DNA from: Chthoniobacteraceae bacterium
Lineage (GTDB): Bacteria; Verrucomicrobiota; Verrucomicrobiia; Chthoniobacterales; Chthoniobacteraceae
Assembly (NCBI GenBank): GCA_028293625.1
Contig: JAQGOL010000030.1
Span: 668,566 to 732,565 of the forward strand
Length of the DNA: 64,000 nt
Reading direction: 5' to 3'
This document shows positions 5,275 through 50,544 of the stretch, piece after piece. The number at the start of each line of letters is the position of its first letter. Position 1 is the first letter of the stretch. The notes beneath the pieces are model-generated. The model made no database searches, had not been told where the DNA came from, and was given only the letters and a program-made list of their open reading frames with translations. Position numbers and translations under genes: made by a program.

Positions 5275-5391
5275 CCGCTGCCTGCGTGAAAACGCGTTAG
5301 GAAGTTAAACGGGGCATGAAGCGCGGGGTCGATGCAATGGGTTGCGGCGGCGATTTGTTTGGCCGATAAACAGGTTGATCCCGGCCTTATC

Positions 5392-8907: not shown

Positions 8908-10374
8908 TCATGCCAATATGCCCTTTACCACAGCAGCGGGTTCGACTCCCGTAAGTCGCTGGTCGAGCCCTTGGAATTTATAGGTAAACCGCGAATGATC
9001 AACTCCGAGGCAATGGAGGATGGTTGCGTTGATATCGTTAAGATGCACCGGATCCTGTATCGCGTTGTAGGAGAAATCATCGGTCTCGCCAAAACTGATT
9101 CCCGGTTTGATTCCCGCGCCGGCCATCCACATACAGAAGTTCCGGGGATGATGATCGCGGCCATAGTTATCCCTGGTGAGCGTTCCCTGGCTATAAACGG
9201 TGCGGCCGAATTCGCCGCCCCAGACTACAAGCGTATCTTCAAGCAAACCGCGTTGTTTGAGATCCTTGACCAATGCCGCGCAGCCGCGATCGGTATCGGC
9301 GCATTGATTGCCAAGGTCGCGCGGCAGGTTTGAATGCGAATCCCAGCCGCGATGCATGAGCTGCACGCAACGGACACCACGTTCCGCCAGCCGCCGCGCC
9401 AGCAGACAACTTTGCGCAAATGAACCAGGCTTATGCACGTCCGGCCCGTAGAGTTCGAGCGTGGCGGCGTCTTCATTTTTAAAGTCAGCCAGGTCAGGCA
9501 CGCTCGTTTGCATGCGAAACGCCATTTCATACTGCGCGATGCGCGTGACGGTTTCGGGATCGCCCAGTCGCTCGTGCTGGCGCTGGTTAAGTTCACCCAA
9601 CACATCGAGCAAGGCACGCCGATCGTTGCGTCCCACTCCGTTTGGATTCTGCAGGTAAAGCACTGGATCGCCACCGCTGCGGAAAGCGACTCCGCTATGT
9701 TTGCCCGGCAAAAATCCACTCCCCCACATGCGCGAAAAAAGCGCCTGTCCATCGGAGGTTTCAGGCCATTTTGGAGTAAGCACCACAAAAGCCGGCAGAT
9801 TGTCCGACTCACTGCCCAGCCCGTAAGCCAGCCATGATCCAAGGCTCGCTTTGCCGGGAATCTCGGAGCCGGTAAAAAGAAAAGTACAAGCCGGATCATG
9901 ATTGATCGCATTCGTATGGACGGTCTTGATCAGCGCAATGTCATCAACGATGCCGGCAGTATGCGGAAGAAGCTCACTTACCCAGCGTCCGCAATTACCA
10001 TGCTGTGCGAACTTGAATTTTGATGGCGCAACAGGCAGCCGCTTTTGGCCTGAGGTCATCGTCGTGATACGCTGGTTGCCGCGTACAGACTCGGGAAGCT
10101 CTTTGTCAAAGTAATCGGCAAGTCCCGGCTTATAATCCCACAGGTCAATCTGTGAAGGCGCACCATTCATGTGCAGATAGATGAGACGCTTTGCCTTTGG
10201 CGCAAAATGAGGCAGGCCTGGCAAGGCTGTGTGCACACGCTGCACAGCATTGGTATCGGCCATTGCATGCTGACCCAGTAAATGAGCAAGGGCAACGCCG
10301 CCAAACCGCAGACCGGCATCACCAAAGAATTGCCGCCGGGTTAGGTTGATTTCGTTTTGAATAAACGGGTGCAT
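8908..10374 (-). CDS. DUF1501 family protein with Tat-type signal
   Basis: A 488-residue member of DUF1501, an alkaline-phosphatase/sulfatase-superfamily-like group frequent in Planctomycetota and Verrucomicrobiota, with no settled reaction. The N-terminus has TRRQFF (residues 12-17) followed by a hydrophobic stretch, a Tat-type export signal implying export in folded form. Superfamily-like features include [16 protein letters not shown] near residue 75 and GRDHHP at about 405-410, a likely metal-site segment. It begins 5 bases after the stop of the DUF1549/DUF1553 cytochrome gene, so the two are probably cotranslated; this pairing is standard for the families. Often annotated as sulfatase, but I see no typical C/S-x-P-x-R sulfatase motif. 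Confidence 0.9.
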
Positions 10375-10379
10375 GGCAA

Positions 10380-13300
10380 TTAATTAATGGCGACGTTTTC
10401 GTCGAGGTTGAGTAATAGATTTCCGATCTGGGTCCATGCCGCCAGCTCAGCAGGGTCGAGCGAGGCGGGCGCTTTGGAATCGCCATTGGCAATTACCGCT
10501 TTTGCCGCGTCCGGCTCCGCCTGGTATCTGGCGGTAAACTCGTTTAGCAACTTCAGCAGCCTTTCTGTTTCGCGCGGCTCAGGCAAACGTCCAAGGACAA
10601 TTTTAAACCCTTCAGTCACCTTCGATTCAGCGGTTGTTCCAGCCCCGGCAAGCAGCCGCTGGGCGAATACGCGCGCGGCTTCGAAAAACTGGACATCGTT
10701 CAGCAGCTGAAGCGCTTGAAGAGGCGTATCGCTCCGTTCGCGGCGGGTGCAAAATCCTTCCCTTGAAGGCGCGTCGAAGTTGGCTAAAAAGGGCGCCGGC
10801 GCAGTCCTTTTCAGGAATGTATAGATACTTCGGCGATATAAGGCATCCCCTGTGTCCTGCTTGTAAGTATGCGTTGTACTGTTCTTGTAAGCCACAGGTT
10901 CCCAGATATTTGGCGGCTGATAGGTTCTGACTCCGCGTCCTCCGCTCTTTTCCACCAGCAATCCGGATACAAAAAGCGCTTCGTCGCGAATCGCTTCCGC
11001 GTTCATCCGCACGCGCGGCCCCCTGGCAAGGAGACGGTTTTCCGGGTCGCGCGCGAGCAGTTCAGGGGTGACCCGCGACGTTTGCCGCCACGTGGACGAG
11101 GTTAGCATCGTCTTGATCAGGAGCTTCATATCCCAGCCGGTCTCGCGGAAGTTGACTGCCAGCCAGTCCAACAGCTCCGGGTTGCTTGGAGCCTCGCCTT
11201 GCGACCCAAAGTCGGCGGACGTTTTTACAAGCCCCTGTCCGAAGAACTGCTGCCAGAAACGATTGACTGTCACCCTGGCAGTCAACGGATTTTCACCGCT
11301 CACAAGCCAGCGCGCCAGGTCGAGCCGTCTTGGATTGGGCGCTTTCAGTTCAGGCAGGATCGCCGGTGTGCCCGGCTGCACCTTTTCGCCTGGCTTATCG
11401 TATTGACCGCGCTCCATCACAAACGAATCACGAGGAGTCTCTGTGTCGCCCATGACAAATGTAGAAGGAAGCGCTGACTCCAGATCGGCGCGTTCTTTTT
11501 CAATCGCCGCGATCTCCTTTTCCACCGGTTCAAACAACCCGCGGGTCGTGACACACACTTTCTGCAGGAAATAATCGCGGAGTTTTGAGAGATCTTCCGG
11601 GATGCGCTGGCCTGCACTTTTTTTAAGCAACAGATTGAGGTTCGGAGGCACTCCGGGCGTATCCCGGCCTTCTCCCGATTTTAGCCAGGCCGCAAGCGAG
11701 CGTGCAGGATCGTTGGCCGGATCATCGACGCCGTTCATGGTCAGGCGATCCCAGTAAACCGTGCCGTCAAATTGCGCGAAGCTGTATCCGTCGATCTTGT
11801 CTCCGGCTTTCAGGCCAAGCTTTTCGGCCGGCACCTTCAGTGCCGTCCATTGTCCGGCCGCCGGCAAGTCTCCTGCAAGAAAATGGGTTGGCGTACCGGG
11901 AGTGCCATAACTGATGACCCCTTGCTCGCCCCAGACCGCGCGATGCTCCCAATCGTTGACATGAAACTGCAGCATGACGGCCCGGGCTCCATCAATGCGC
12001 GCCATCACTGAAATAATCCCGTCCCTGGGCACGCGGAAACTCACTCCACCGCCATTGAAAAAATCCTGCCCGATCCCTTTGGCTGTGCGTTTGATCGCCA
12101 GCTTGCCGCTTGCAGCCGGCGTCTCCGCACCACCTGCTAGAGTAAGAGGCGCGGTGCCGGCATTGACCTGCGGAGTCGCGCCAGACGGAAAACCATCCTC
12201 CATCCAAATCTCTTCAATCAGGCGCGGCGTTGCAATCTCAGGCGCCTCGACGGGATCACGATAGCTAAGAGACGCCAAAATATCGCTCGCTTTCGTTCCA
12301 GCTGCCGCGATCCGCCCGGCCAGGCTGGCAAGCTGTTTCTGCTGCTCCTCAGTTGGTTTTGGCACGATCGGCTCGACGTTGAGTTTATTACCATCGAGCG
12401 CAGGATCCGCGGCGCTGTTGAAGAAAGCGTAAAGTTGATAGACTTCCTTTTGTGTAATCGGATCAAACTTATGATCGTGGCAAGTCGCGCATTGCGCAGT
12501 CAGCCCCAGCCAGGTTTGAACCGTGGTGGTCATGCGATCCAATGAATAGCGGAACCGAAGTTCCTCCGGGATTGCGCCGCCTTCACTACTGCTTGCGTTG
12601 CAACGGTTAAAACCCGTCGCGATTTTTTGCTCAACAGTCGGATTGGGAAGTTGATCACCGGCCAGCTGCTCAATGGTGAACTGATCAAATGAAAGATTGC
12701 GGTTAAACGCGTCGATCACCCAATCGCGATAAAGCCACATTTGCCGTTCGTTATCGAGATGCAGACCATGCGTATCCCCGTAACGGGCAAGATCCAGCCA
12801 CCAATGCGCCATATGTTCGCCAAAACGCGGTGATGCCAGCAGCCGGTCGATCAAATTTTCATACGCGTTCGTCGCCGCATCGGCCATGAACATATCGAAC
12901 TCGCGCGGAGTCGGAGGCAGCCCGGTGATAGCCAGAGTTGCGCGACGCAGAAGCGTCGGCTTGTCGGCATCCTGCGATGGAGAGAGACCTTCGGCTTCCA
13001 ACCTGGCAATCAGGAAGGCATCGATAGGATTCCGCACCCGTTCAGCTGCTTTAACAGGTGGATTATCTGCTTTGACCGGCTGTTCAAACGCCCAATGTTT
13101 TTCGTAAGAGGCCCCTTGCACAATCCAACGCCGGATCAGTTCCTTTTCCTCTTTCGAAAGGAGCTTGTGTGACTTCGGTGGAGGCATCACTTCGTCTTTA
13201 TCGTCACTGATAATCCGCGCCCAAGCGTCGCTTTTTTCCAGATCGCCGGGCTTGATCGGGATAATTCCTTCGTTCTCGCGGTAAGCGCCTTCCGCCAGAT

Positions 13301-13496
13301 CGAGCCGCAGCTTGGCTTCCCGGTGTTTCGCGTCGGTCCCATGGCAGGCGAAACATTTATCGGACAGGATCGGACGAATATCGCGGTTAAAAGTAAGTTT
13401 GCCCTCGGAAGGCGCGGCGTGCACCAAAGCGGATCCCAGCAACCACAGCGCCGTGGCACCTCGAAACGGCGAAATTAATCTGGCGATGTTCTTCAT
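10380..13496 (-). CDS. planctomycete cytochrome c + DUF1549 + DUF1553 protein
   Basis: A large exported multidomain protein. The start at 13496 gives a signal peptide ([11 protein letters not shown]... to LVHAAPS); an in-frame ATG exists at 13568. Order: PSCyt1 cytochrome module with CFACH (residues 48-52 of this start) and the usual MPPP segment, DUF1549/PSCyt2 including a second CxxCH (CATCH, 336-340), a jelly-roll-like insert (about 450-615; [27 protein letters not shown]), then DUF1553/PSD1 ([23 protein letters not shown]). Two haem sites predict c-type cytochrome function in the periplasm. It is 5 bases upstream of the DUF1501 gene, its usual partner. The substrate is unknown; a link to polysaccharide processing is inferred from neighbours. 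Confidence 0.9.
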
Positions 13497-13613
13497 GAAA
13501 AATCGAGGGGGAGAGAAATGAGGTGTTCCGGATACACTCGGAAGTGAGCGGCATTGTAGCGTCAACATTCTCCAGCAAAACCTTAAAGAATCCAGCTGCG
13601 GATCAGCTACCCC

Positions 13614-13648
13614 AAAAAAAGGAGCGCCGCTTGCGCAACGCTCCTTTT
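13614..13648 (-). terminator. rho-independent terminator of the small cytochrome gene
   Basis: Read on the - strand, AAAAGGAGCG and CGCTCCTTTT form a 10-bp stem around a 12-base loop, followed by a run of seven Ts. It lies 28 bases beyond the cytochrome stop and separates that gene from the downstream DUF1549/DUF1553-DUF1501 pair. Confidence 0.85.
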
Positions 13649-13675
13649 GAATAAATCGGAATCTGAGCTCGGCGA

Positions 13676-14056
13676 TTAGTCAGCCTTATGCTCGCTGTGG
13701 CAGGCTTTGCAATTGATAGCTTCCTTGTAGGCGGCGGTTGCGCCGTCTTTTTTCGCGACGACGTTTTCGGTAACGTCAATTAGCTTTGCCACCCTATCCT
13801 TGAACGCTCCGGCATCGCCTTTTGGAGGTTTGGTATCTGCCATGGCCTTGTATAGGACGAGCGTTTTTTGCAACTCCTCTTCACTTGCGGTGCCATCGAT
13901 AATGCGATCCGACACCTTCTTCTCTCCTTTAGGCGCCTTATGCGCGAACTTCATCGCCTTCTCGATTGGTTCAAACTCTTTATCGGCAGCCAGAGTGGAC
14001 CACGAGGCGGAAACAGCGAGAGCGGCAATGGAAAGGGTGAGGAAAAAACGGTTCAT
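13676..14056 (-). CDS. small secreted c-type cytochrome (cytochrome c'-like)
   Basis: A 126-residue protein with a clear signal peptide (MNRFFLTLSIAALAVSASWS to LAA) and one haem site, CKACH, at residues 116-120, near the C-terminus. The body looks all-helical. Size and terminal CxxCH suit a four-helix cytochrome c'-type fold, so electron transfer is the natural role. It sits between the two large PSCyt gene pairs, 85 bases after the DUF1552 gene, and has its own terminator. It could be the mobile electron carrier for either pair; that is inference from position. Confidence 0.8.
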   Translation of the reverse strand: MNRFFLTLSIAALAVSASWSTLAADKEFEPIEKAMKFAHKAPKGEKKVSDRIIDGTASEEELQKTLVLYKAMADTKPPKGDAGAFKDRVAKLIDVTENVVAKKDGATAAYKEAINCKACHSEHKAD

Positions 14057-14141
14057 GATTGGTGGCGGCTTTTGAAGCAGAGGCTTTTCAAAAAAACGAG
14101 CCGATAATCGATTTTATCGAATCGAAAAATTCGAGTAAGCA

Positions 14142-15485
14142 TTACAAACCGGCCAAACGGGTATCCGCGTCTCCGAAGCGATCAAGCTTCACATCCATGC
14201 GATCCATGATTGAGAGATACATGCTGCATAGCTTCCGATTTTCGTCGCCCTTGTCCAAATAGTCGAGAACGCGGCCTGTTTCGAGCGAGCCTCCAAGGCC
14301 GCCTACGAGCACAAGAGGGACCTTCGATGAATCGTGCTTGCTGCCCGACCACATGTTGGAGATCAACATCAGGCAGGAATTATCAAGCACCGTCCCCTCA
14401 CCTTCCGGCATGGAGTCAAGCTTCGCGGCAAGGTAAGCCATCTGGCTGCAATAATAGCGGGTAATCCGCTCAAACGCATCCGATAGATCATCGTGGGAAG
14501 CGGAATGATGCGCCGCACGCACGTCGAGAAACGGATAACAAAGCCCGGAAAGATCCCGGCACAAAAGCAGCGTGGCGACGCGGGTCTTGTCGGTTTGAAA
14601 ACCGAGCGCGAGGATATCGCACATCAGGCGCATATGCTCTCGAAGATCCTCGGGAAGTCCGTTATCGGGACGTTTCATGGTGAAGATGGACGGCCCGCTC
14701 TCTTTGGCTTTCTCATCGGCGACATCTTTGGCGGCGCGAGCGGATTCGACGCGTTTTTCAACTTCGCGCACGCTGGTCAGATATTCATCGAGCTTCGCTT
14801 TATCAGCATTGCTCACCTTGCGATTGAGACCGGCGGCTTCTTCTTTGACGCGATCGAGAATACTTTTTTGGCGTTTATCGCCGCGGTTATCAAACAGGCT
14901 GTCAAATGCGAGGGATGGATATTGTTCCATCGGCACCGGCGAGGTCGGATTTTGCCACGAGATATGCGAGCTATACGCCATCGAGAAATTGGTCTCGTGA
15001 TAGCCCGTGGTAGGCTGTTCGCATCCAAGCACCATTGAGGGCTGCACCGTCTGCTCACCTATCCGGTTTGCAAGGACTTGATCGAGACTAATCCCTCCTT
15101 TTAACTCCGCGCCCTTTTGCAAAGCAGCGCCTGAAAGCATGTTTCCGGTCTGTCCTGGATGAATTCCCACGCCTGTCGCCGATTTATTAAAGAGCCCGGT
15201 AATAAAGTTGAGCTTCGCCTTGAATGGAGCGAGCGGCTCAAGGCTTTTACCCAGTTCCATTTGCGCGCCGCTCCCTTTTGCCCACCAATGATTCGCGTTA
15301 ACTCCGTTGCCCCAGAAGAGTGTCGCGAACCGCTTGGGATACTGCCTTGGCACCTCGCCTTTCACAAGAGTGGAACCCCAGACCGGGATCGACTCCAACC
15401 AAGGCAATGCCATCACAACGCCTGCTCCACGGAGAAAAGTGCGCCGCGAAATCTGGGAGATATTTCGGTTATTGGGATTTGTCAT
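14142..15485 (-). CDS. DUF1552 family protein with Tat signal
   Basis: A 447-residue DUF1552 protein. SRRTFLRG at residues 13-20 followed by a hydrophobic segment is a textbook Tat signal, so the protein is probably exported folded. Family features include PKRFATLFWGNGVN, the long charged helix around residues 200-250, and LAYLAAKLDSMPEGEGTVLDNS-type sequence near the C-terminus. DUF1552 proteins have no proven activity. It starts 3 bases after the DUF1592-group gene, the usual partner, so a two-gene transcriptional unit is likely. This parallels the DUF1501 pair nearby. Confidence 0.9.
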   Translation of the reverse strand: MTNPNNRNISQISRRTFLRGAGVVMALPWLESIPVWGSTLVKGEVPRQYPKRFATLFWGNGVNANHWWAKGSGAQMELGKSLEPLAPFKAKLNFITGLFNKSATGVGIHPGQTGNMLSGAALQKGAELKGGISLDQVLANRIGEQTVQPSMVLGCEQPTTGYHETNFSMAYSSHISWQNPTSPVPMEQYPSLAFDSLFDNRGDKRQKSILDRVKEEAAGLNRKVSNADKAKLDEYLTSVREVEKRVESARAAKDVADEKAKESGPSIFTMKRPDNGLPEDLREHMRLMCDILALGFQTDKTRVATLLLCRDLSGLCYPFLDVRAAHHSASHDDLSDAFERITRYYCSQMAYLAAKLDSMPEGEGTVLDNSCLMLISNMWSGSKHDSSKVPLVLVGGLGGSLETGRVLDYLDKGDENRKLCSMYLSIMDRMDVKLDRFGDADTRLAGL

Positions 15486-15488
15486 GGT

Positions 15489-18437
15489 TTAATTGGAGGT
15501 GAAGCTCTCCTGGCCTCGTTTGTTTAAGAACTGCCGGCTTGTCACGATGCTTTCGATTAAACTCGAAAATCGATAACCATTTAATTCCAGTTTTGCGCGC
15601 ATGGCAGCGATGGCTGGATCATCGGTCAGCTTCAAACTGCGTCCAAGTCCGTAGCTGAGTAATTTGCGGCAAAGGTTTTCCACATAATCGGCTTTTCGGT
15701 GCGCACCGATATATTCCCGTAACCCCGCAATACCGCTTCCTTCGCTTCCTCCCGGAAAGATGGCATGCGCATCGACGGGACGTCCCCCGAGATCCACCTC
15801 ACGGAGTTCGCCAACCGGGCCGTAACCTTCAAATACAAGGCCCATGGCATCGAACCGTGCATGGCAGCCGGCGCAACTTTTATCCTGACGATGGCGTTCC
15901 AATGTTTCACGGAGCGTGAGGCTGCCGAGTTGTTCTTCATTCGCGGGCAACTCGGGCACTTTAGCGGGCGGCGGCGGAATCTGTTCTCCGAGGATTCGGC
16001 GCACGACCCAGTTGCCGCGTTTGACCGGACTGGTCCGAAGTCCGGGCGCGTTCTTTGTAAGAAATACAGCCATTGGCATCAAACCGCCGCGTCCATAGCG
16101 AACCGCGTCATCGACGCGGACCCAATCATTGGGACCCGCCGTTGATTCAGGCATGCCGTAGTGGCGGGCAAGCAGCGGGTTGACGAAGGTATAGGTTCCA
16201 AAAATCAGATCGAGGATGGAACGATCATTTGAAACCACATCAGTAATGAAGCGGAGTGGTTCCTCGAACATTGCCTGGCGCAGTTCATTGGTGAATGAAC
16301 TGAAACGTTCGCGGTCAACCGCGTTATGCTCCTCAAAACGCCTGAAATCGAGCCAGTTGCCCGCAAATTCCGTTGCAAAGCCGCGAACCCGTTCGTCTTT
16401 GAGCATGCGGCGAGCCTGCGCCACGAGCACCTCGGGTTGGTGCAGATCGCCGGAGGCCGCATGGTTTAGCAACTCCGCATCAGGCATGCTTGACCAGAGA
16501 AAATAACTAAGCCGGCTTGCCAGCGCGTAATCGTTCAGCGGCTGTTCACCCGCGCCATCCGCTGCCAGGTCGATACGATAAGCGAAGTTTGGCGACATGA
16601 AGATGCTAACCACCGTGTCGCGCACGGCGTCCTCATGAGGCAACCCGTCTTCCTTTCGCAATTGCCAATAGAATCTGATTAAACCTTCTTCTTCCTCCTT
16701 TGCAAGCGGCCGGCGGTAGGCGCGTTCCGCAAGAGATTGAAGCGCCTTGAGGTGGCTCGGTTCCGCGGCTTCCCGCGTCCGGTCGACCCAGCGAATGCTC
16801 GCATTAACCCGCTCGAAGTGTTCGATGACAGCGTTGATGGTTGTGGTATCCGAAGTCGAGTTCCGGATTTTGTTCGTGTAGACTTCCGCGAGTTGCTTGA
16901 TCTTGGCTTCTGCAGCCATCTCTTTGTTTTCCGGCCGCGCAAAATCAAACTCCGGCCCGCGTAAAAAAGCGGAGTCTGTGCGTTCAAACCAAAGGAAACC
17001 GACAAGTTGGCGAATAGGTGCGAGAGTAATAAAATCGAGTTCCTGCCAGAGCCGATCAAGCTCCTCCCTTTCATTATCAGTGAGGATCAAGTCACAAAGC
17101 GGCGCATCATCGCGAAAGTATCCCATTTGACTATGAAAGCCGGCGCTTAAGAGACGGCCGGCGTTGCCTTTCTCGCTTTCCTCCGTAAGCCATACACGGG
17201 CACGTTCCGAAACGTAAAATGCATCGGGAAAGATTTCACAGAAGCTCTTAAAAGCCTGCTCATAGCGTTCTTGTGAGATTGCATCCCCGGGAACGGTCAG
17301 TGGTTCCACAGCTTCAGTCGCCAGCCCTTCCATTTTCAGCTGAAGCGCGCCGCCGCCGTAGGTCCGGCGGTTTGCGGCCATCTGGCGATCTTTCCACAAA
17401 ACCAGCGCTTGCGCCCCGGGATTGACGCCCCGGACCGTAAGGTTAGGCACGTTCACCTTCACCTTTTGCCGCAGCTTCAGCATCAGATCGCGCATGCTTT
17501 CGCAACCTTGCCGCACCACTTTTGCCTCATCAGAGGCCGGCAAGTTTCGCCAGATCGCCTGGAGTGCCGCGATTGGTCCGATTGACTCCGCACGCTCAGA
17601 AAGTGCCGGCCAGATGCGCGCCAGGTATTTCGGACTGATCCTGAACTCGGCCGCAATGGAATCAAGAGTGGCGCCGGGCTTTCCCAGTAAATCGCGGTTC
17701 TTATAAGTCCACGCCGCCTGGAAGTAATCGGCGCAGTCAGTTGGCTGACGCCGGTAAAATTCGACGATTCGTTTGACGCAATATTTGTCCCGGTCAGTAT
17801 CGGCAATGATCGGATGCGGCGCGAATGCCAAACCGTCAGGTTTCAGCACCAGATGCTCTGAAACAAATCGGGCGGCCTCCATGTATTTCTTAAAGAGACC
17901 CGGCGACATCGTGAGCGATTCACCGGAGTTATCGAATCCTTCCTGATTGGCAGGATCGACGGGAAACTCGCGAGTGGGCTGGATATTGACTCCGGCAAGA
18001 TCGCGGATGGTGTAATCGTATTCAGCGTTACTGAGGCGATGTGCCAGAACTGCGCCGGGATCGCCTGCATTGCGCAACGCTTCTTCCTTTCGGAATTGTT
18101 CTATCCATGCAACCACTCCGGCACGGTCCTCATTGGAAGGCTGCCGCTTGGCATCCTCGGGCGGCATATCGCCGGAGCCAAGTTGATCGAGAAGCATTTT
18201 CCATCGGCGCTCGTCTTCAATCACTGATCGGATCGTCACAAAGGGCCGCAGATCAAAGTCACCCTTTGGCTTTTCATTGCCGTGACACTTAAAGCAGTAG
18301 GTCTCAAGAAACGGATGCACGGTTTGATTGAACCGCTGTTCCAGGTCAGCCAGGGAATCCGCGCCGTTTGCTCTCAGGCCCATGCCGCACAGGAGCAACG
18401 GCAGCAACCTCATCGGCAATTTCACTGCCCTGCTCAC
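15489..18437 (-). CDS. planctomycete cytochrome c + DUF1587/1595/1592/1588/1585 protein
   Basis: A 982-residue exported protein with the usual domain string: signal peptide (to residue 26), PSCyt1 with CFKCH at 48-52, DUF1587 (LAHRLSNAEYDYTIRDLAGV), DUF1595, DUF1592 (LASRLSYFLWSSMPDAELL), DUF1588 with a second CxxCH (CAGCH, 855-859; HARFDAMGLVFEGYGPVGE), and C-terminal DUF1585 (LCRKLLSYGLGRSLKLTD). Two haem sites predict periplasmic redox function. The gene leads a pair with DUF1552. Compared with typical members the segment around residues 200-480 is long and carries a helical insert of unknown role. The electron donor and substrate are unknown. Confidence 0.9.
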   Translation of the reverse strand: MSRAVKLPMRLLPLLLCGMGLRANGADSLADLEQRFNQTVHPFLETYCFKCHGNEKPKGDFDLRPFVTIRSVIEDERRWKMLLDQLGSGDMPPEDAKRQPSNEDRAGVVAWIEQFRKEEALRNAGDPGAVLAHRLSNAEYDYTIRDLAGVNIQPTREFPVDPANQEGFDNSGESLTMSPGLFKKYMEAARFVSEHLVLKPDGLAFAPHPIIADTDRDKYCVKRIVEFYRRQPTDCADYFQAAWTYKNRDLLGKPGATLDSIAAEFRISPKYLARIWPALSERAESIGPIAALQAIWRNLPASDEAKVVRQGCESMRDLMLKLRQKVKVNVPNLTVRGVNPGAQALVLWKDRQMAANRRTYGGGALQLKMEGLATEAVEPLTVPGDAISQERYEQAFKSFCEIFPDAFYVSERARVWLTEESEKGNAGRLLSAGFHSQMGYFRDDAPLCDLILTDNEREELDRLWQELDFITLAPIRQLVGFLWFERTDSAFLRGPEFDFARPENKEMAAEAKIKQLAEVYTNKIRNSTSDTTTINAVIEHFERVNASIRWVDRTREAAEPSHLKALQSLAERAYRRPLAKEEEEGLIRFYWQLRKEDGLPHEDAVRDTVVSIFMSPNFAYRIDLAADGAGEQPLNDYALASRLSYFLWSSMPDAELLNHAASGDLHQPEVLVAQARRMLKDERVRGFATEFAGNWLDFRRFEEHNAVDRERFSSFTNELRQAMFEEPLRFITDVVSNDRSILDLIFGTYTFVNPLLARHYGMPESTAGPNDWVRVDDAVRYGRGGLMPMAVFLTKNAPGLRTSPVKRGNWVVRRILGEQIPPPPAKVPELPANEEQLGSLTLRETLERHRQDKSCAGCHARFDAMGLVFEGYGPVGELREVDLGGRPVDAHAIFPGGSEGSGIAGLREYIGAHRKADYVENLCRKLLSYGLGRSLKLTDDPAIAAMRAKLELNGYRFSSLIESIVTSRQFLNKRGQESFTSN

Positions 18438-18532
18438 GCGATTACAGGTTGATTATATCGGCACCGGCTTTTTCCATGAAAGGAAAGCGTCGGGCCTTCG
18501 GGTCGCCACGCATTGAAATAGCTCATCATCGA

Positions 18533-20926
18533 TTAAAGGCTCGCGGGCCGGTAAAGGAAAGGACGCCGAAACATGCCTCCAAAATGATGCGGATTAAAAC
18601 CGCGCAGCGTAATGAGGTTGCGGCCGGCCTTGAGTTTGCCGGTGAGATCGACGTCCCACTCAAACTTGTAGTCGTTGCGCCACCACGGCTCCGAATATCC
18701 GCGGTGGCCGATCAATTCTCCATTTAAGTAAAGCCAGCAATCATTGAAGAGTCCCGGAAACATGGCATGCACGGAACCGCGGCATTGGGATTCGGAAGTA
18801 TCCACTTCAGTTTGATACCAAAAATGACCCGTGTAACTCTGGCTGTCCGCGTGCCGGATACCCTGGCCTTGAATATACAGATCGCTGCGGAGCATCTCCC
18901 ATTGGTCAGGCCAATCCTTGCGCAGATCGGCCGTGAGCGATTTTCCCTGTGCGTTCCATGCCGAAAGATCGGCCGGCTTGTAAGCCCAACCGCGCGCCAG
19001 GCCGGTATCGTGTGGGTCACGCCGGAAAGCCCATTCCAAAGGGAGCTTCGTTAACAACGTCCCGCGCGAACCGTCCGTTAACGCCATCAGCGTCCGATAT
19101 TGCTGTACTTCGCCCGGCCACCAGGCCGCCCCTTGTTCACCAATATTTTTGTAGGTGGTAAAAGCCGGACTCATGGTAGTGAGCAATTCTCGCGCGGCAA
19201 GTCCGCGCTCGCCCTGGGAAACAGCCGCCTTGAAATCAAGGCTGCTCACCGCACGCTGCATGGCCATATAACTATCGATCACTTCAAAGCTCAGTTCCGT
19301 GAAGTGAAGCCGATCAACATAGAGCTTCTGCTCGCGCGCCGCGCTGCTTTTAATCGGCGCAATGGCGCTGCGGGCATCTTCCAGCTTCGCCTTGAGGAAA
19401 TTCACCAGCTCCGGAGTATAGATCATCGGCGCGACAAAATACTCGTGCTCGGTTGCAAGCGTCTGCTGCCACGCGTCAAAGATCGCGCGCCAGTATGCCG
19501 ACATCGGCACAGCGGCCGGGCCGTAGAACTTTGGAAAAAACTCGTCCAGCAATGCCGCAACATCCACTTCCGGATTCCACATCAACTGGCCGCGGAAAAA
19601 GAGATTCAAAAATGTCGTTGCGGTTGCGCCGCGGCTTTCAGTGCCAATGCCGAGGATGCCCGCCTTCGCATAATTCCTTACGTCCTGGGCGAAAACAAAA
19701 TGAGAGGGGTTTGGCAGATCACGCCAGACGAGCTGTCCCTGATCATAGTCGTAAATGGCCAGGCGGCCATGCGTGAGTTGCGCCCAGCGGAAAAGCATTT
19801 CCTTGTATTCCTGGCGAGGCGGCGAAATCGGATCGTCCATGCCGTGATTAGGATCGATGTCAATGGGCGCAAGCCACATGACCACATTGGATTCCAAAGC
19901 AGTGATTTTTTGCGGCGGCAATGTCACATTGGCATAAGCCATGCCACCCAGCCGCGTCCTGCTCGCTGGATACTTCAAACGGAGCAGCTTCCCCACCTTA
20001 TTATAGAGGGCAATCATCGCGTCGGTATTGGAAGGTTGAAGCGCGTATTTGTCGTTGAGTCCCGCCTGCAACTCACGATCGCTCGCCGATTCGCTCACGT
20101 AGTTGCCGTCTTCGATGGCAAGCGAGATGCCCTCAACGCCTTTAGCGTATTCCGGTTCGATCCGCCTTGCGACTTCCTCTGCTGTGGCATCATCGGAGAG
20201 CGCCACGTTGAACATCGACTTGCCCGGGGGAATTAGCTTGGCGGTATATTGTCCAAGCGCATGCCCCATTCCGGCAAGCTTCACGCTGCTCATAAAGTTA
20301 CGCCGCTGAAACTCCTCCGCGCCGGTGGAGTCCGCATTCCAGCTTAGCCAGTAATGACGGACTTCAAAAGGTGGCGCGTAGGCAAAATCGAGCGTTCCGA
20401 TACTCAAGGCCGGCTGTGATGGAATGCATTCGCCAAACTCCCCCGCAAAATACCAGCGGCAGCCCCACTGCTGCAGAAGCCATGATGCGGCAAAATAATG
20501 CGATTCATCATTGGTTCCCGCAAGGAACAGCCGGTTTCCCACGCGTTTGATCGCCACGGCGTCGCCGCGCAATACAGGCTCTTTCTTAACCACCGCCTCA
20601 AGGGCGGATTGCAAGGCAGGCTGCGCTTGGATCGCCATCCTTCCGACAACGATCGCCGGCTTATCAGACTTCAATAGCGCCGCAATGACTTCGGGCTGAT
20701 CGACCAACTCGAGCCTGACTCCGCTCATTTGAGCGATATACTTCTGCAGATCCGCCGCGGCTTGTTTCTCCCAGCGTCCCGCATCCGAGCCGACCACGAT
20801 GGTTGCAAGCGGGGTGCCACCCTTGGTTATTAGGAGATCGTCCGGACCGTGTTTGCCCGCGACTTGTGCGGAGGCAACGCAATGAAACGAAAGAAACGCG
20901 GCGATGAATAAGGCAAATCGGTGCAT
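18533..20926 (-). CDS. DUF4838 family secreted glycoside hydrolase-like protein
   Basis: A 797-residue protein with signal peptide (MHRFALFIAAFLSFHCVASA). The N-terminal 150 residues (TIVVGSDAGRWEKQAAADLQKYIAQMSG, PAIVVGRMA) resemble the alpha-glucuronidase N-terminal domain that normally precedes DUF4838. DUF4838 follows (WYFAGEFGECIP, LGIGTESRGATATTFLNLFFRGQLMWNP). The last 100 residues form a jelly-roll-like module (FPGLFNDCWLYLNGELIGHRGY). The family is thought to act on polysaccharides; the specific substrate cannot be read from sequence. It starts 2 bases after the propeller-SIS gene, indicating an operon. Confidence 0.85.
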   Translation of the reverse strand: MHRFALFIAAFLSFHCVASAQVAGKHGPDDLLITKGGTPLATIVVGSDAGRWEKQAAADLQKYIAQMSGVRLELVDQPEVIAALLKSDKPAIVVGRMAIQAQPALQSALEAVVKKEPVLRGDAVAIKRVGNRLFLAGTNDESHYFAASWLLQQWGCRWYFAGEFGECIPSQPALSIGTLDFAYAPPFEVRHYWLSWNADSTGAEEFQRRNFMSSVKLAGMGHALGQYTAKLIPPGKSMFNVALSDDATAEEVARRIEPEYAKGVEGISLAIEDGNYVSESASDRELQAGLNDKYALQPSNTDAMIALYNKVGKLLRLKYPASRTRLGGMAYANVTLPPQKITALESNVVMWLAPIDIDPNHGMDDPISPPRQEYKEMLFRWAQLTHGRLAIYDYDQGQLVWRDLPNPSHFVFAQDVRNYAKAGILGIGTESRGATATTFLNLFFRGQLMWNPEVDVAALLDEFFPKFYGPAAVPMSAYWRAIFDAWQQTLATEHEYFVAPMIYTPELVNFLKAKLEDARSAIAPIKSSAAREQKLYVDRLHFTELSFEVIDSYMAMQRAVSSLDFKAAVSQGERGLAARELLTTMSPAFTTYKNIGEQGAAWWPGEVQQYRTLMALTDGSRGTLLTKLPLEWAFRRDPHDTGLARGWAYKPADLSAWNAQGKSLTADLRKDWPDQWEMLRSDLYIQGQGIRHADSQSYTGHFWYQTEVDTSESQCRGSVHAMFPGLFNDCWLYLNGELIGHRGYSEPWWRNDYKFEWDVDLTGKLKAGRNLITLRGFNPHHFGGMFRRPFLYRPASL

Positions 20927-20928
20927 GT

Positions 20929-23382
20929 TCAGGGAAGCTGGCGGCGTTGCACTTCAACATTGATGCTTTCAAAGGCGGCAATTTGCATCACCCCGCTTGG
21001 AGGCAGAATAGGCATCGGATAGCCCTCCAGCCAGACGCAGGCATCGCCGAAACTCGCGCCGTAAGTGGCCTGCAAACTGTAACCGGAGGGAACCGCGAAT
21101 TCGGGACGCGGGTTCTCGCCGGTGACAATCATCACGCGCTGATGCTTTTTTTGAAAGAGATCGTGAAGGGAACGATCGAGCCCCCATTCGCCAAGCCGCA
21201 GAACGAGTGCGTTCTCGGGTGTCTTTTCGTAATCCTGCATCTGCGCCTCGGCGCTGCCGTGGACCTCTTTATTGACTGCCCAGATTGCATCATCAAAGCG
21301 GCCGATATAGTTCATCGCCATATGGCCTGAGGAAGCGACAATGGTCTTGCGGCCCTCGCGCAATTCGGCGTCGATTTGCTCCGCCATTTTTTGAAGAGAA
21401 GGAAGATCAACCCGTTCCATTCGGGCAATCAGATAACGGATCCGCGAGAGATAACGTTTGCCCAATTCCCCCGGCGCGACGGGCACCACGGTGAAATCGT
21501 CGTGAAACTGCATCTTCCCTGAGTAACGATCCGACCAGGCGTGGCCATCAATCGTTGACCAGCTTTTCCACATGGTCGGCATCCTGCCATGGCGGGTCAG
21601 GGCGCCGACGAATTCACCCATGAGGAGCCAGCCATTCACCGCATTGGTAAAATGATTCGTTTTACCTGCAAGCCGGGAACCGGACAATGGAACCACGCGG
21701 TCTTCGCCGTCCGCGCCGGAATCAATCCACGCATCGCACGCGGCAACATGCTCGGTTAATAAAGGCGATTTGCGGGCGCCGAACCCGATGATGAACAAAC
21801 CCTTGCCCTTCTCTTCCTGAAGTCTTTTCAGATCGCCAGGCTTCGGCGCGTCGTCCCAGGCGAAGATCATCATATCGTTCGCTTTTTCCTCCGCTGTGCG
21901 CTCCTTCTTCCAGGACCGATCGAAACTGACATTCATCAATCCGCCGCTGCGTCCAACCAGCTCCTGTTCCAGGGTTGAACCAATCCAGGGAAAACCAATC
22001 ATGCCGCCGTGCAAATGCCGCTCCGCAAGTCGCTCGGCAAGTTGCGAGATTTCCGGGATACGAGTAGCGGCGGCATCGAGTTTTTTCCCGAGCGCATCGA
22101 GATAAAGGGAAGCGGCGCCTGGCGCCGGAGCAGGAAGCTTGTAAGAGTCGATCTTCAGCAAAGTAAACGGATAGAGCACCGTGGCATAGAGGGTGCCATC
22201 GCGCGCCGCCAGCAAGGCCAGGTGCGCATGCAGCGGGGTCAACGTGCCATCCGGCAACCGATGAAAGCCATGTGTCCACGGCTTTGCCTTTCCGTCCGGA
22301 CCTGGCGTCCAGTCAAAATAATCCGGATTCCGCACTTTGAGAACACCAAGATCCTCGTGTTTGCGGGCCACCGGATCGTAGCGAACCAAATGGTGCAGGT
22401 AACCCGTGCCGAATCCCGTGGTATTATCGATCCGCACCAGCGCGTAGATCCGGCCATCGGGATGAATAGTCAGGGCGCTGCGGCAATCCGGATTTTTGCC
22501 TTCTATAAATCGGCCGCAATTTTCAGCATTGGCATGTTCTCCGGCGCTTTGAAGATCAATGCAAAGGAGCGTTGGATCATTCATTAAGGTCAGCCAGGCG
22601 TGCCTTCCATCGGGATCGAGTTGCCAGATGGGAATCGCATTGTTGTCAGCCCGCGTCCATCGCTGACCACCCACCATGATAGGACGCGAAGTAATTCGCT
22701 CTGTTGCCGGATCATACTGTGCAAGTTCGAACTCCTTGGTAATGGAAGAGGCCACTCCGCGTGAGTCGACCAGGGTGGTTGCAAAAGGGGTAAGCAGCGG
22801 ACCAAGTTCCTTCCAAGACGTGCCAGCAAGCTTGCCTATCATCCAGTGCTGCTCTTCACAGGTAACCGCATAGATCCGATCCCGCGACTCATCGGCAACC
22901 ACATCGATGATCCCCTGCCCTGGAAGTGGCATTCCAAGATTTTCCGAATGGCCGGAACGCGGGTCGTAAACCATCACGTAGCCGCCCGGATAATCCGAGG
23001 TGTCATCCTTGGCACGATACCCCTGTTTTGAGCCGACATAAACGCGGCCGCTCGGCCCGACAAAATTACGGGTATGCAACTTGGCTTGCGCCGCGTAACC
23101 GCTCGCGCTCAGACCGCACGTTTTGTTTGTATCGAGGACAATCTGTTGCTTGCCGGTCTTCGGATCGAACTCCACGAGAAAGGCGTTGTGATTATACTTG
23201 GCTGTCCCGATATGAATGGCGCCATCAAGGGATTCAGAAAGCGAGAAATAGCCTGATTCCTCACTCGTTGTCTCCGGCATGATGTAAAACGCCGTAGCCG
23301 GGACGTAGACCGGTGCTTCTGCAAACACTACGCCATGAGTGAGCAGGAAAATAAGTGCGAATAAATGACACAGTAGGTTCAT
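20929..23382 (-). CDS. secreted propeller protein fused to a SIS-like C-terminal region
   Basis: The start at 23382 gives a signal peptide (MNLLCHLFALIFLLTHGVVFA); an in-frame ATG lies 33 bases upstream. The N-terminal 420 residues look like a beta-propeller (FDPKTGKQQIVLD, VYVGSKQGYRAK, VYDPRSGHSENLGMP, IYALVRIDN). The C-terminal half resembles sugar-isomerase/phosphosugar-binding proteins: GLFIIGFGARKSPL, MMIFAWDDAPKPGDL, TIVASSGHMAMNYIGRFDD and EGYPMPILPPSGVMQIAAFE. Fusion of a propeller to a SIS-like unit behind a signal peptide is unusual. It is upstream of and almost joined to the DUF4838 gene. Function unknown; sugar sensing or processing is an inference. Confidence 0.7.
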   Translation of the reverse strand: MNLLCHLFALIFLLTHGVVFAEAPVYVPATAFYIMPETTSEESGYFSLSESLDGAIHIGTAKYNHNAFLVEFDPKTGKQQIVLDTNKTCGLSASGYAAQAKLHTRNFVGPSGRVYVGSKQGYRAKDDTSDYPGGYVMVYDPRSGHSENLGMPLPGQGIIDVVADESRDRIYAVTCEEQHWMIGKLAGTSWKELGPLLTPFATTLVDSRGVASSITKEFELAQYDPATERITSRPIMVGGQRWTRADNNAIPIWQLDPDGRHAWLTLMNDPTLLCIDLQSAGEHANAENCGRFIEGKNPDCRSALTIHPDGRIYALVRIDNTTGFGTGYLHHLVRYDPVARKHEDLGVLKVRNPDYFDWTPGPDGKAKPWTHGFHRLPDGTLTPLHAHLALLAARDGTLYATVLYPFTLLKIDSYKLPAPAPGAASLYLDALGKKLDAAATRIPEISQLAERLAERHLHGGMIGFPWIGSTLEQELVGRSGGLMNVSFDRSWKKERTAEEKANDMMIFAWDDAPKPGDLKRLQEEKGKGLFIIGFGARKSPLLTEHVAACDAWIDSGADGEDRVVPLSGSRLAGKTNHFTNAVNGWLLMGEFVGALTRHGRMPTMWKSWSTIDGHAWSDRYSGKMQFHDDFTVVPVAPGELGKRYLSRIRYLIARMERVDLPSLQKMAEQIDAELREGRKTIVASSGHMAMNYIGRFDDAIWAVNKEVHGSAEAQMQDYEKTPENALVLRLGEWGLDRSLHDLFQKKHQRVMIVTGENPRPEFAVPSGYSLQATYGASFGDACVWLEGYPMPILPPSGVMQIAAFESINVEVQRRQLP

Positions 23383-23586
23383 GGAAGGGGAAGCCGTGCG
23401 CGGCATGAAGACCAACCCGTAACCAGCGTTTTTCTTCGGTTATTCCCACCCGATCCGACGAATTACCGCCGTTTTCATCAGGCAACAGCTGTCAGATGGC
23501 ACAAATAGCTTTCTTGTCGTCTAGCTCATCGGGCACTGCGGGCTGGATTGGCCAACTTGTTTAAGCAGCTGCGGTGATGAAGGCGC

Positions 23587-26436
23587 TCATTTTGGCAATG
23601 ATTCAATCCATTCCACAAGCAACCGGACGCCGTCCGGGTCGCCAGCGCGGGTGCCAAGCGGCGGCATCTGACCGGGACCGCGCGTACTGACTCGCGAAAT
23701 CATGACGCTCCTGGCGGCGGATCCGGGAGCGATCACGCGGGGATCGGGCAGGCCGAAACCGCCATGCTGCGGGAGTTGATTCAACGCGTGCATCGCTTTA
23801 GGCGCCACGAGCCAGTCAAAATCCATGACACTGTTGCCGCCGCCATAAAGCGTATGACAGTGGGCGCAATTGACGCCGAGATAACTGCGGGCCCGTTTCT
23901 CCAGGCTGGCGTGCGGATCGTTCACCGCGTTAAAACGCGCCAGATGCGACGGGTCGCAGGGAAGCAGCGGCGAAAGGGCGGATCCGCGCTGATTGGGTTC
24001 CACGCCAACCGGCCGTGCGTCTTCAAGCGGGCGCTCATGTCCGAAGCCGACCGGGTCGACACGGAGCAACCCGAGGCGCTCCCATTTTGTGAGCTGATCG
24101 GCGCGATTAAGCTGCGCGTCATGGAGGGTCAAAGCGAAGTTGGCCTGCCTTGAATGGCACATCATGCATTCAGCGCGGCTCGGGATTCGCCACGGCTGAC
24201 CGTCAGGCAACTCGATATCGGCGCCGGCTTTTTGCGCCAGCACCGCATCGGTCTGTTCGCGATTCCAGATATAGCTATATCCCGCCCAGTCGTTTTGTTG
24301 TTTGAGTAAAATCCGCGTCTCCACTCGGCGGCCCGCGTTTGTTAGCGTTTGGGCAAGCACGGTCTGATCGGGAGCCTGCCAGCTTTTTGAAGGGCGCATT
24401 TCAATGGTGCCGTCGCCGGGCATGGCAAGATGATACTCGGCGGATGCGCCATCGTGCCAGGCGGGCGCATTGATCTGATAGCTCAAGACACCGGCTGCCG
24501 GAGTTAGGCTGGAGGCTTCGGAAAAAAGACCCGTCTCGCTCAGTTTATCAGGAAATATTGGGCTGGGATCGACCGCCTTTGCCGCGGCCAGCTTGTAGAT
24601 GCCGCCCCCGTTGCCGGTGCCGTAATCCGCGAGAATGACTTCGCCTTGCGCATCGGCGGCGACATGAGTGATCGCAAGCGGAGTATCGCAAAGCTCGCGA
24701 TCCCACTCAAGCCGGGTCCCGTCATGTTTGGCAGCCCATAGACGGCCTGTATTAAAGTCCCCGTAAATATAGGCACCGGCAAGTTCCGGGAACTGTTTGC
24801 CTCTATAAACCACACCGCCTGTCAGCGATCGGAACTCGCTATGGGAATGTTCAATTGTCGGAAATGTCACCGGATGCGGCCCCGGCGCCAGCTCCGGCCG
24901 AAATGGATAACTTCCTTCAAAGCGGCTCCACCCATAGTTCTCACCGGGCCGCACAAGACGCGCGTATTCCCACAAATCCTGGCCATTCTCGCCCTCCCAA
25001 AGCTGTCCGCTGATGGCATCAAACGTCAGATGCCACGGGTTTCGCAGGCCGTATGCCCAGGTTTCCGGTGGAAACCGGTTATCGTTAAAGAACGGATTAT
25101 CGCGAGGAATGGAGTAAAGCTTTCCGTTTGCCGGGTGATCCACGTCGATGCGCAGGATTTTGGAGCGAAGGCCGGCTGCCTGCTGGCCCACCTGATCCGC
25201 ATCACTATCCACCGAGCCATCCCCGCTCGTGACAAAAAGAAGTCCGTTGGAATCAAAAGCGATTCCGCCGCCGTTATGCCCGTTGCTTGACCATTCAATG
25301 ATCACAGTGCGGGAGGCCGGATCAGGACGTCCATCGCGGACCCGATAACGGAGCACCCGGGTCGCCCGCGAAGACTTCGATTCGGGCCCGTTTGCTCCAA
25401 AAAACAGATACCCATTCTCGCTGAAATTCGGATGGAACAGGATGTTGTAAGTCCAATCGCCGAGTTCCAACAACGTCTCGGCGTCGCTTCCATCGCCAGC
25501 CGTGCGGAACCTGCGCAGCTTCATTGGCCCGTCCCAATTGGTTTCCTGCTCGATAAACCAAGTCCATTCGCCGCCGGGCGCGGACGCCAGCGCAACCAGC
25601 GAGCGCGCCGCCAGCTGAGGCCAGGCCCGTTGCACGCTGTATTTTGGCGGCCCATCCGGAGTGCCAACAAGCCGCTCATTTTCCCAGCGAATCCGCGTCA
25701 ATGGTTCCGGGCCAACAAATCGGATCGGCGTGAATTCATCGGTGCGATGGAAGCTCGGCTCCTTGAGCATTGCCGTGCTTGAAAGCTCGCTATTGGGAGC
25801 GGCGCCATTGACCCGCGCAAGATTCATCTGCCAGATCTCCCCCGGCACGGGCCGCCCGCCAGCCGGATTAAAATCCGACCACGGGATACGGCCTTCGACC
25901 GTCCAGCCGATATCGGTGTCTCCGTGCCGATTTAAAGTCCCGTTGATGGCGACCTTTGCTTCCACATGAAATTCGCCGCGCCCAACCTGTTCCGGATCGC
26001 GCCAGCTCCCTGCTTTGGGGAAAAACGCATCGAAGACCGCGCCGGCCGGATTGACTTCGAACTCAAAATAACCGGCATGCTTTTTGGAAGGCCGGAAGAA
26101 GAGTTCAACGACATCGTTTTCCCAGAGACGTCCGTTATGGGTGAAGACATCCGCACAGACGTCGGCATCCTTCATTTCGGCGTAAAAATAGAGCCATTCC
26201 CGATCCCAAAGCAGCTTAACGCGGGTCCCTTCCTTGATAGCCGGCGCCTCCTTGAGCCAGGGCTGGCTGAAATTCTCCACGAATGAAGCCTGCTGCCAGA
26301 CTGCGTCGCCACCCTCACCATCGATCTGCGGAGGAGTTGCTGCCCAACGGCATTCAAGCGGCGCGGCTTGGGCAGCGGAAAGCCAGAAAGTCGCGGCAAG
26401 CGCAAAGGACAAAAGGATGAAAGGGAGTTTAACCAC
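23587..26436 (-). CDS. CBM9-like / PQQ-type sugar dehydrogenase / diheme cytochrome fusion
   Basis: A 949-residue exported protein; the signal peptide ends near SAAQAA. Residues about 28-230 match the CBM9/DOMON-like carbohydrate-binding fold (PQIDGEGGDAVWQQA, LYFYAEMKDADV, ENDVVELFFRPS). Residues about 270-640 match soluble aldose/sorbosone dehydrogenases that use PQQ (HNGGGIAFDSNGLLFVTSGDG, WAYGLRNPWHLTFD, YGWSRFEGSYPF). The C-terminal part has two haem sites, CMMCH at 757-761 and CAHCH at 857-861. One chain could therefore bind a glycan, oxidise a sugar and pass electrons to haem. It is divergent from ridA and 204 bases upstream of the propeller-SIS gene. Confidence 0.85.
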   Translation of the reverse strand: MVKLPFILLSFALAATFWLSAAQAAPLECRWAATPPQIDGEGGDAVWQQASFVENFSQPWLKEAPAIKEGTRVKLLWDREWLYFYAEMKDADVCADVFTHNGRLWENDVVELFFRPSKKHAGYFEFEVNPAGAVFDAFFPKAGSWRDPEQVGRGEFHVEAKVAINGTLNRHGDTDIGWTVEGRIPWSDFNPAGGRPVPGEIWQMNLARVNGAAPNSELSSTAMLKEPSFHRTDEFTPIRFVGPEPLTRIRWENERLVGTPDGPPKYSVQRAWPQLAARSLVALASAPGGEWTWFIEQETNWDGPMKLRRFRTAGDGSDAETLLELGDWTYNILFHPNFSENGYLFFGANGPESKSSRATRVLRYRVRDGRPDPASRTVIIEWSSNGHNGGGIAFDSNGLLFVTSGDGSVDSDADQVGQQAAGLRSKILRIDVDHPANGKLYSIPRDNPFFNDNRFPPETWAYGLRNPWHLTFDAISGQLWEGENGQDLWEYARLVRPGENYGWSRFEGSYPFRPELAPGPHPVTFPTIEHSHSEFRSLTGGVVYRGKQFPELAGAYIYGDFNTGRLWAAKHDGTRLEWDRELCDTPLAITHVAADAQGEVILADYGTGNGGGIYKLAAAKAVDPSPIFPDKLSETGLFSEASSLTPAAGVLSYQINAPAWHDGASAEYHLAMPGDGTIEMRPSKSWQAPDQTVLAQTLTNAGRRVETRILLKQQNDWAGYSYIWNREQTDAVLAQKAGADIELPDGQPWRIPSRAECMMCHSRQANFALTLHDAQLNRADQLTKWERLGLLRVDPVGFGHERPLEDARPVGVEPNQRGSALSPLLPCDPSHLARFNAVNDPHASLEKRARSYLGVNCAHCHTLYGGGNSVMDFDWLVAPKAMHALNQLPQHGGFGLPDPRVIAPGSAARSVMISRVSTRGPGQMPPLGTRAGDPDGVRLLVEWIESLPK

Positions 26437-35252: not shown

Positions 35253-36596
35253 CTAAGGAACGGGTAGCGGGGTGGCCGCCGGCGGCACGGGGACCGGCGT
35301 TGCGGGCGCCGCGGGGATGGGCGCAGCGGGTACGGGGGGCGTGGGGGCGGGTGGCGCCGGCGGCGGAGGGGGAAGCTTCGGTTTAATCAGGTCGGCCCAG
35401 GTAAAAAGGTCGCCGGTATAACCGCCTATCTCAGCCAGGAGCTGCGCGCAGCGGTCATGCCATTTGAGAAGATCGGGCGCATCGAAGGGCTTATCGGCGG
35501 AGCCGGGGAAGATTAGGTAGCTTACCTTAAGGTCGCTTACGGCCCGATTATTGGAATTCGAACGCGCATTCAGCTGCTGGCAGATGCGGGTAGAGCCTTC
35601 GCCCGATTTATACGCCGGACCAACATCGCCCACGATCGCCGGGTACAGCGTGCCGCCAAAGATCACCACGCAGTAGTCGCCCACTGATGGAGCGAAAGGT
35701 CCCTTGTTTTTCCCGAACATCGAGCCGGGCAGGACAATATAAGGATCAGTGGAAGCGACCAGATAACTGTATTTCCTAAGATCCGAAACCTCGGAGCGAA
35801 GCCGGTTTAGGGTTTCCTTTAACTCGCGGCTGCGTCCCGGCGTGGCGAGGGCAAGTTCCTGTTCGTATTGTTTGATCCGCACCTCGCGCGGAGTAGTGAA
35901 CGAGTTGGGCAGCTCGCTTTTTTTGCTCCATTTATAACTGGTGAACGGCTGGAAAGTAACTGAGGAGCCGTCTACTTCGGGGACGCGGTCGCTGTCAGAG
36001 CCGTCCTCGTCGACATCCATGTCGGACTGAATAAAGAGCGTGCGCCGCTTGGTAAGCGGGTCCTGAAGTTCAAGCACAGTCTCCGTGTCGAAGAAATTGT
36101 GCCGGGTAAGCAGGTTATCGAGCCGATTCAGGCTGGCTTGCAGATTGGCGACTTTGAGCCGGTAAAGATCGTCGTAAAAAGGCGAGATTTTGGCTGAGTC
36201 AAGCAACGCAGGCAGCCCTGGCAAAAGCGTGGGAAGCTGGGCGTTAAGGCTGACGATCTGGGTGAGATCCTTGTGCGGCTTTGGCACCTTTACCTTCACA
36301 CGCAATTCCGCGGCATAACTCGAAGGATCATTCCGGTCGGCAGTGGCGCTGGTGCCGACTTCAGTCTCCAAAAAGACTTTGTATTGCATGCCGTTGAAGA
36401 TCTTGCCCGTTTCGAGCCGCTTGTTTGGAACATAGGGCGGCGGGGGCGGAGTCGGAGCCGGTTCAGGCACAGGAACCGGCGTTGCCGGCACCAATAGCTT
36501 CTCCGGGGAAGGAAGTATCGGCACGGAGCGTGGACAGCTCTTGAGAATAAACGCCAGCGCCGCCGCCAGAACCATGAGGATAAAAAAACGCTTCAT
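35253..36596 (-). CDS. GH75-like chitosanase with proline-rich flanks
   Basis: A 447-residue exported protein (hydrophobic N-terminus, residues 4-18). Matches the fungal/bacterial GH75 chitosanase fold: SDMDVDEDG (191-199), YIVLPG (286-291), then GDYCVVIFGG and GDVGPAYKSGEGS, where D324 and E333 fit the family's catalytic Asp and Glu. Predicted to hydrolyse chitosan or related glucosamine polymers. Proline-rich tracts flank the domain (38-57 and about 405-447) and could span an envelope layer. A charged helical insert (about 238-275) splits the catalytic domain. KSC near residue 21 is a poor lipobox. Confidence 0.7.
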   Translation of the reverse strand: MKRFFILMVLAAALAFILKSCPRSVPILPSPEKLLVPATPVPVPEPAPTPPPPPYVPNKRLETGKIFNGMQYKVFLETEVGTSATADRNDPSSYAAELRVKVKVPKPHKDLTQIVSLNAQLPTLLPGLPALLDSAKISPFYDDLYRLKVANLQASLNRLDNLLTRHNFFDTETVLELQDPLTKRRTLFIQSDMDVDEDGSDSDRVPEVDGSSVTFQPFTSYKWSKKSELPNSFTTPREVRIKQYEQELALATPGRSRELKETLNRLRSEVSDLRKYSYLVASTDPYIVLPGSMFGKNKGPFAPSVGDYCVVIFGGTLYPAIVGDVGPAYKSGEGSTRICQQLNARSNSNNRAVSDLKVSYLIFPGSADKPFDAPDLLKWHDRCAQLLAEIGGYTGDLFTWADLIKPKLPPPPPAPPAPTPPVPAAPIPAAPATPVPVPPAATPLPVP

Positions 36597-40196: not shown

Positions 40197-40212
40197 GATG
40201 CGATTGGAGAGC

Positions 40213-41067: not shown

Positions 41068-41073
41068 GCGGCG

Positions 41074-48818: not shown

Positions 48819-48836
48819 GGGAGGAAACAGCCGGAT

Positions 48837-50510: not shown

Positions 50511-50544
50511 GTGGGTTAGGTAGACTCTGGGGAGCGAAGAAGGT

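Follow-up and report, generated by a model that had tools for sequence, protein, structure and literature searches.

Eight co-directional genes on the minus strand of the window (the whole stretch of DNA that was analysed, 64,000 nucleotides from a Chthoniobacteraceae genome) form a run at 8908-26436 and encode mostly exported proteins, some sugar-handling and some haem-binding. This gene set is real and some of its parts are conserved together in relatives. We tentatively interpret the eight genes as a module, probably one transcription unit, that acts on a glycan or on oligosaccharides outside the cytoplasm, and we give this interpretation a little less than an even chance. The proposal that the glycan is oxidised is a fair hypothesis and is partly supported. 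The conserved partners, which include a recognisable sugar dehydrogenase with linked haems, a glycosidase-like gene and an exported fusion with SIS domains, suggest a testable substrate class for PSCyt/PSD pairs, of which certain Verrucomicrobiota and Planctomycetota carry dozens per genome (He et al., 2017; PMC5615132). They also amount to a small group of proteins to assay.

Gene content of the run

The genes are listed in Table 1. None of the intergenic gaps exceeds 171 bp (5, 107, 85, 3, 95, 2 and 171 bp along the run). An uninformative promoter and terminator scan of the DNA returned three promoter-like sites where nine were expected. The first-pass annotation had placed three genes on one strand at 18533-26436, and these correspond exactly to minus-strand open frames, that of the propeller-SIS gene extending over 20929-23415 with the ATG at 23382 as the likelier start. 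A hydrophobic signal-like segment, read from the sequence, opens each of the three encoded proteins.

Table 1. Genes of the run at 8908-26436
Feature	Coordinates	Strand	Remarks
CBM9 + GSDH-type dehydrogenase + SO2930-like diheme c cytochrome fusion, signal-like start	23587..26436	-	949 aa, GTG start
Beta-propeller + tandem SIS fusion, signal-like start	20929..23382	-	817 aa from ATG 23382; open frame to 23415
DUF4838 protein, glycosidase-like, signal-like start	18533..20926	-	797 aa; 2 bp after propeller-SIS gene
Planctomycete-type cytochrome (DUF1592/1588/1587/1585/1595)	15489..18437	-	Pfam; two CXXCH
DUF1552 partner protein	14142..15485	-	Pfam; twin-arginine signal
Small exported monohaem protein	13676..14056	-	CKACH near C-terminus
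Planctomycete-type cytochrome (PSCyt1, DUF1549, DUF1553)	10380..13568	-	Pfam; two CXXCH
DUF1501 partner protein	8908..10374	-	Pfam; twin-arginine signal

By their Pfam content the two cytochrome pairs are PSCyt2/PSD1 with DUF1501 and PSCyt3/PSD4 with DUF1552. The small monohaem protein between them gave no family match and no PDB relative at E 0.05. The gene at 18533-20926 had been described as DUF4838 and glycosidase-like, in agreement with its match to PF16126 (E 1.3e-23; 84 bits against a cut-off of 26.6). A structure model of this protein (pLDDT 57) was too poor to use and was set aside; the assignment of glycosidase activity therefore rests on family and context.

It had also been noted that no carbohydrate ABC or SusCD transporter is present. 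Among the window genes that were tested, the one ABC set (39237-41814) is of the Mla type. Elsewhere in the window there are a GH85 endo-hexosaminidase gene (5332-8373, plus strand) and a GH75 chitosanase-like gene (35253-36596, minus strand), and at 47031-50624 two 595-aa frames overlap on opposite strands (48732-50519, plus; 48837-50624, minus). That a GlcNAc/glucosamine theme links GH85, GH75 and the NagS-like SIS half described below is a guess.

The propeller-SIS fusion

A Pfam search with the propeller-SIS protein returned no match. In an AlphaFold2 model (pLDDT 89, pTM 0.88) an N-terminal all-beta domain, residues about 25-417, aligns with solved beta-propellers in fold searches, and it is followed by two predicted alpha/beta/alpha domains whose order of alpha and beta elements resembles that of SIS proteins. 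Fold searches with the whole model return mostly propellers, so that the SIS half was barely probed in this way. A profile built from the C-terminal half together with stand-alone relatives matched SCO4393 (NagS of Streptomyces) at E 6e-9 and 3cvj at E 7e-6, and 15 of 23 aligned relatives matched PRK02947, a 'sugar isomerase' (best 2e-14). On the strength of the confident model, the SIS profile matches and the PRK02947 matches in relatives, the earlier label of a propeller-SIS fusion holds, with the addition that the SIS domains are two in tandem.

The dehydrogenase fusion

The first gene of the set had been called a CBM9-PQQ-diheme fusion. We found a match to CBM9_1 (E 2e-10), a match to GSDH (E 3.5e-32) that lies over the curated Pfam cut-off (112 bits against 25), and a diheme end with two CXXCH motifs, which confirms the architecture, 'PQQ' being a family name. 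The diheme end aligns with TIGR03806 in two stretches (E 2.4e-54) and scores 184.6 bits against a cut-off of 313.3; judged by sequence it is a relative of the SO2930-type cytochrome of that family and is not filed as a member.

It can be seen from the GSDH alignment that the motifs GHNGG and GLRNP are kept, which are the places of the catalytic-type His and of the Arg-Asn pair, and that these three positions match His363, Arg430 and Asn431 in CcPDH, a PQQ enzyme from a mushroom. The catalytic His is His144 in sGDH and His363 in CcPDH, and is accompanied by the Arg-Asn pair (PMC6881789).

It is conceivable that this protein is not a working quinoprotein, and that it is instead an apo form which binds or acts as a scaffold in the manner of the Hedgehog-interacting protein (Hhip), with the set as a whole binding or hydrolysing glycan without oxidation. 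By E-value, Hhip entries do rank first among PDB sequences; however, Hhip has GLHDP (His-Asp) where the window protein has GLRNP, and the retained His and Arg-Asn, like the fusion of two CXXCH motifs to GSDH, argue against this explanation. The apo-protein explanation also draws on the cofactor, as no pqqC was found in the source genome. The same model was over cut-off in only 5 of 240 genomes of the phylum, and since it matches these five other genomes the search works. If the enzyme is active, it would need PQQ from outside or another cofactor. Some bacteria, of which E. coli is the known example, do use PQQ supplied externally, which weakens the argument from pqqC. We consider the apo-protein explanation unlikely.

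Linkage of the parts in relatives

Scanned with the propeller-SIS protein alone, genome contigs gave no hit; a scan with its relatives returned 34 loci. Among these, fusions occur in Verrucomicrobiota, Kiritimatiellia, Omnitrophota and one Pirellulaceae MAG, and propeller-only forms are found mostly in Planctomycetota. Parts of the set are neighbours in relatives, so that the refuting case named by the first-pass annotation, relatives in which the segments never adjoin, does not apply. In two Chthoniobacter MAGs the CBM9-GSDH-diheme gene is followed by propeller-SIS on one strand; their GSDH-diheme and propeller-SIS proteins are respectively 67% and 73% (L118) and 69% and 74% (L147, with a gap of about 53 bp) identical to those of the window, and the two dehydrogenases are 82% alike. 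DUF4838 lies directly ahead of the propeller in three loci from Planctomycetota and Opitutia (L138, L140 and L141; 51-54% identity to the window protein, L140 and L141 being 95% alike). A DUF4838-CBM9 gene in L120 stops 2 bp short of propeller-SIS, a layout seen again in L122 (a 95% identical copy) and, by similarity, in L149. Sulfatases are next upstream of DUF4838 in L120 and L138. A DUF7133-HEAT-cytochrome stands beside the propeller in L120, L124, L125 and L143, and DHOR in L121.

In a further genome (G160) the GSDH-diheme orthologue (54%) is broken by a contig boundary, with its pieces at the ends of C44 and C52, and divergent from it there is an adjoining pair of DUF1501 (69%) and DUF1549/1553 (45%), of which the DUF1501 protein is the closest to that of the window among the 27 in that genome. 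No second genome with all parts of the set was found among the genomes searched. Relatives in several phyla keep parts together, and sugar oxidation outside the cytoplasm is therefore plausible.

Two other loci were noted in passing. One (L078; G211:C1:2166000-2185900), which also speaks for the single module, is a one-strand run with GSDH-diheme, DUF1552/DUF1592 pairs, a weak propeller relative and sulfatase-like proteins, the latter labelled by reading the sequences. In the other (L148:166-4693) an 865-aa propeller frame overlaps a DUF1549 cytochrome frame, which is either a fusion or an annotation overlap.

Cytochrome pairs near the fusions

Of 16 fusion loci, 8 have a cytochrome-pair gene no more than about 3.6 kb from propeller-SIS (L120, L121, L122, L124, L125, L126, L128 and L134). 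For the highest pair density observed, one per 54 kb, 12.5% would be expected by chance (p 3e-4). Most of the fusions near pairs come from a single clade, in which L120, L121, L124, L125, L128 and L131 are 75-89% identical, and L122 and L126 are closely related to L120 and L125. A count by deep lineage leaves a weak association (2 of 6, p 0.05-0.17). The arrangements vary inside the clade, which speaks for the association having been kept, although this is an argument and not a test.

In the source genome there are matches to DUF1501 (43), DUF1553 (44), DUF1592 (16) and DUF1552 (14); with about 57 members, its set of planctomycete-type cytochrome pairs is unusually large. This raises the possibility that two separate modules stand side by side, an exported glycan set (GSDH-diheme, propeller-SIS and DUF4838) and PSD pairs with another function, which adjoin it only as a consequence of a pair-rich genome. 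The 10 kb flanks of the DUF1501 and DUF1552 genes over cut-off (43 and 14) cover 15% of the genome, and its GSDH genes show no enrichment around pairs, 3 of 14 being within 10 kb (p 0.34). On the other hand, both DUF4838 genes of the genome have a pair at a distance of about 5 kb (p about 0.02 at 10 kb, with two genes only), propeller-SIS repeatedly adjoins PSD pairs, the arrangement varying between loci (L120, L121, L124, L125 and L134), and the dehydrogenase is linked to a pair in G160. Consistent with separate modules, neither of the two PSD cytochrome families had matches in G110, which has the nearest DUF4838 of the phylum search, or in G124, which has one propeller-SIS. We regard two separate modules as a serious competitor to the single module, though on balance not a probable one.

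Discussion

The proposal of a glycan-oxidation locus is favoured by the linkage of parts in relatives, the catalytic-type residues of GSDH and the signal-like starts; as a single pathway from glycan to haem it fares less well, given that the searches yielded no whole-set genome, no PSD matches in G110 and G124, no GSDH enrichment and no pqqC. For the single module that we prefer, the following course can be suggested, in which the substrate, the cofactor and the electron path are all put forward conditionally. The glycan would be attacked by the DUF4838 enzyme, possibly with the propeller taking part, and the CBM9-GSDH part would bind and oxidise a sugar. The two fused c-haems would take up the electrons, for which the small monohaem protein and the PSD cytochromes would be the next carriers, and the SIS half may bind an unphosphorylated, perhaps oxidised, sugar. 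A wider version is that SIS sugar chemistry is carried outside the cytoplasm by an exported propeller and tandem-SIS family found across Verrucomicrobiota, Planctomycetota and Omnitrophota, and acts there on unphosphorylated oxidised sugars from neighbouring haem-linked dehydrogenases, as a form of redox-coupled glycan breakdown. This is speculative and we think it improbable as it stands.

In freshwater Verrucomicrobia, PSCyt genes adjoin two families of unknown genes, and their clusters are often near sulfatases and CBM-bearing proteins. He et al. (2017; PMC5615132), who described them, had suggested a function connected with carbohydrate, so that the broad concept predates this work. Our literature searches, whose coverage was incomplete, found nothing relevant on GSDH in planctomycete clusters or on an exported SIS-propeller fusion, and the exported propeller and tandem-SIS fusion with its conserved partners appears to be the new part. 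The PSCyt/PSD clusters of He et al. (2017) resemble the loci described here in the PSCyt neighbours, the nearby sulfatases and the CBMs. They differ in that PQQ and sorbosone dehydrogenase are absent from the main text of that paper, and an exported propeller-SIS does not seem to be described there.

NagS (SCO4393; PMC12680351), the GlcNAc-6-phosphate dehydratase of Streptomyces, is related to the SIS half at the profile level, and the SIS half retains the RAGG-like Arg together with a G-H and a GDA motif. Unlike NagS, the window protein has tandem SIS domains, is exported and is fused to a propeller, and the fusions lack serines at the phosphate-binding places of NagS (those residues being taken from PMC12680351) in what is a fragmentary alignment to 3cvj and NagS. 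A serine-poor site of this kind, as far as that alignment goes, would fit an exported protein that meets no phosphosugars.

The closest parallel to the dehydrogenase is the AA12 quinohaemoprotein pyranose dehydrogenase of Coprinopsis cinerea (PMC6881789, PMC4332668), in which a GSDH-like PQQ propeller, a CBM and a haem domain are joined in a single chain, the same plan as here. The catalytic-type His and the Arg-Asn pair, which are the AA12 PQQ contacts that were compared, are kept in the window protein. The haem parts are different, a c-type diheme C-terminal part in the window protein and a b-type AA8 domain in AA12, as are the binding modules, CBM9 in the former and another CBM in the latter.
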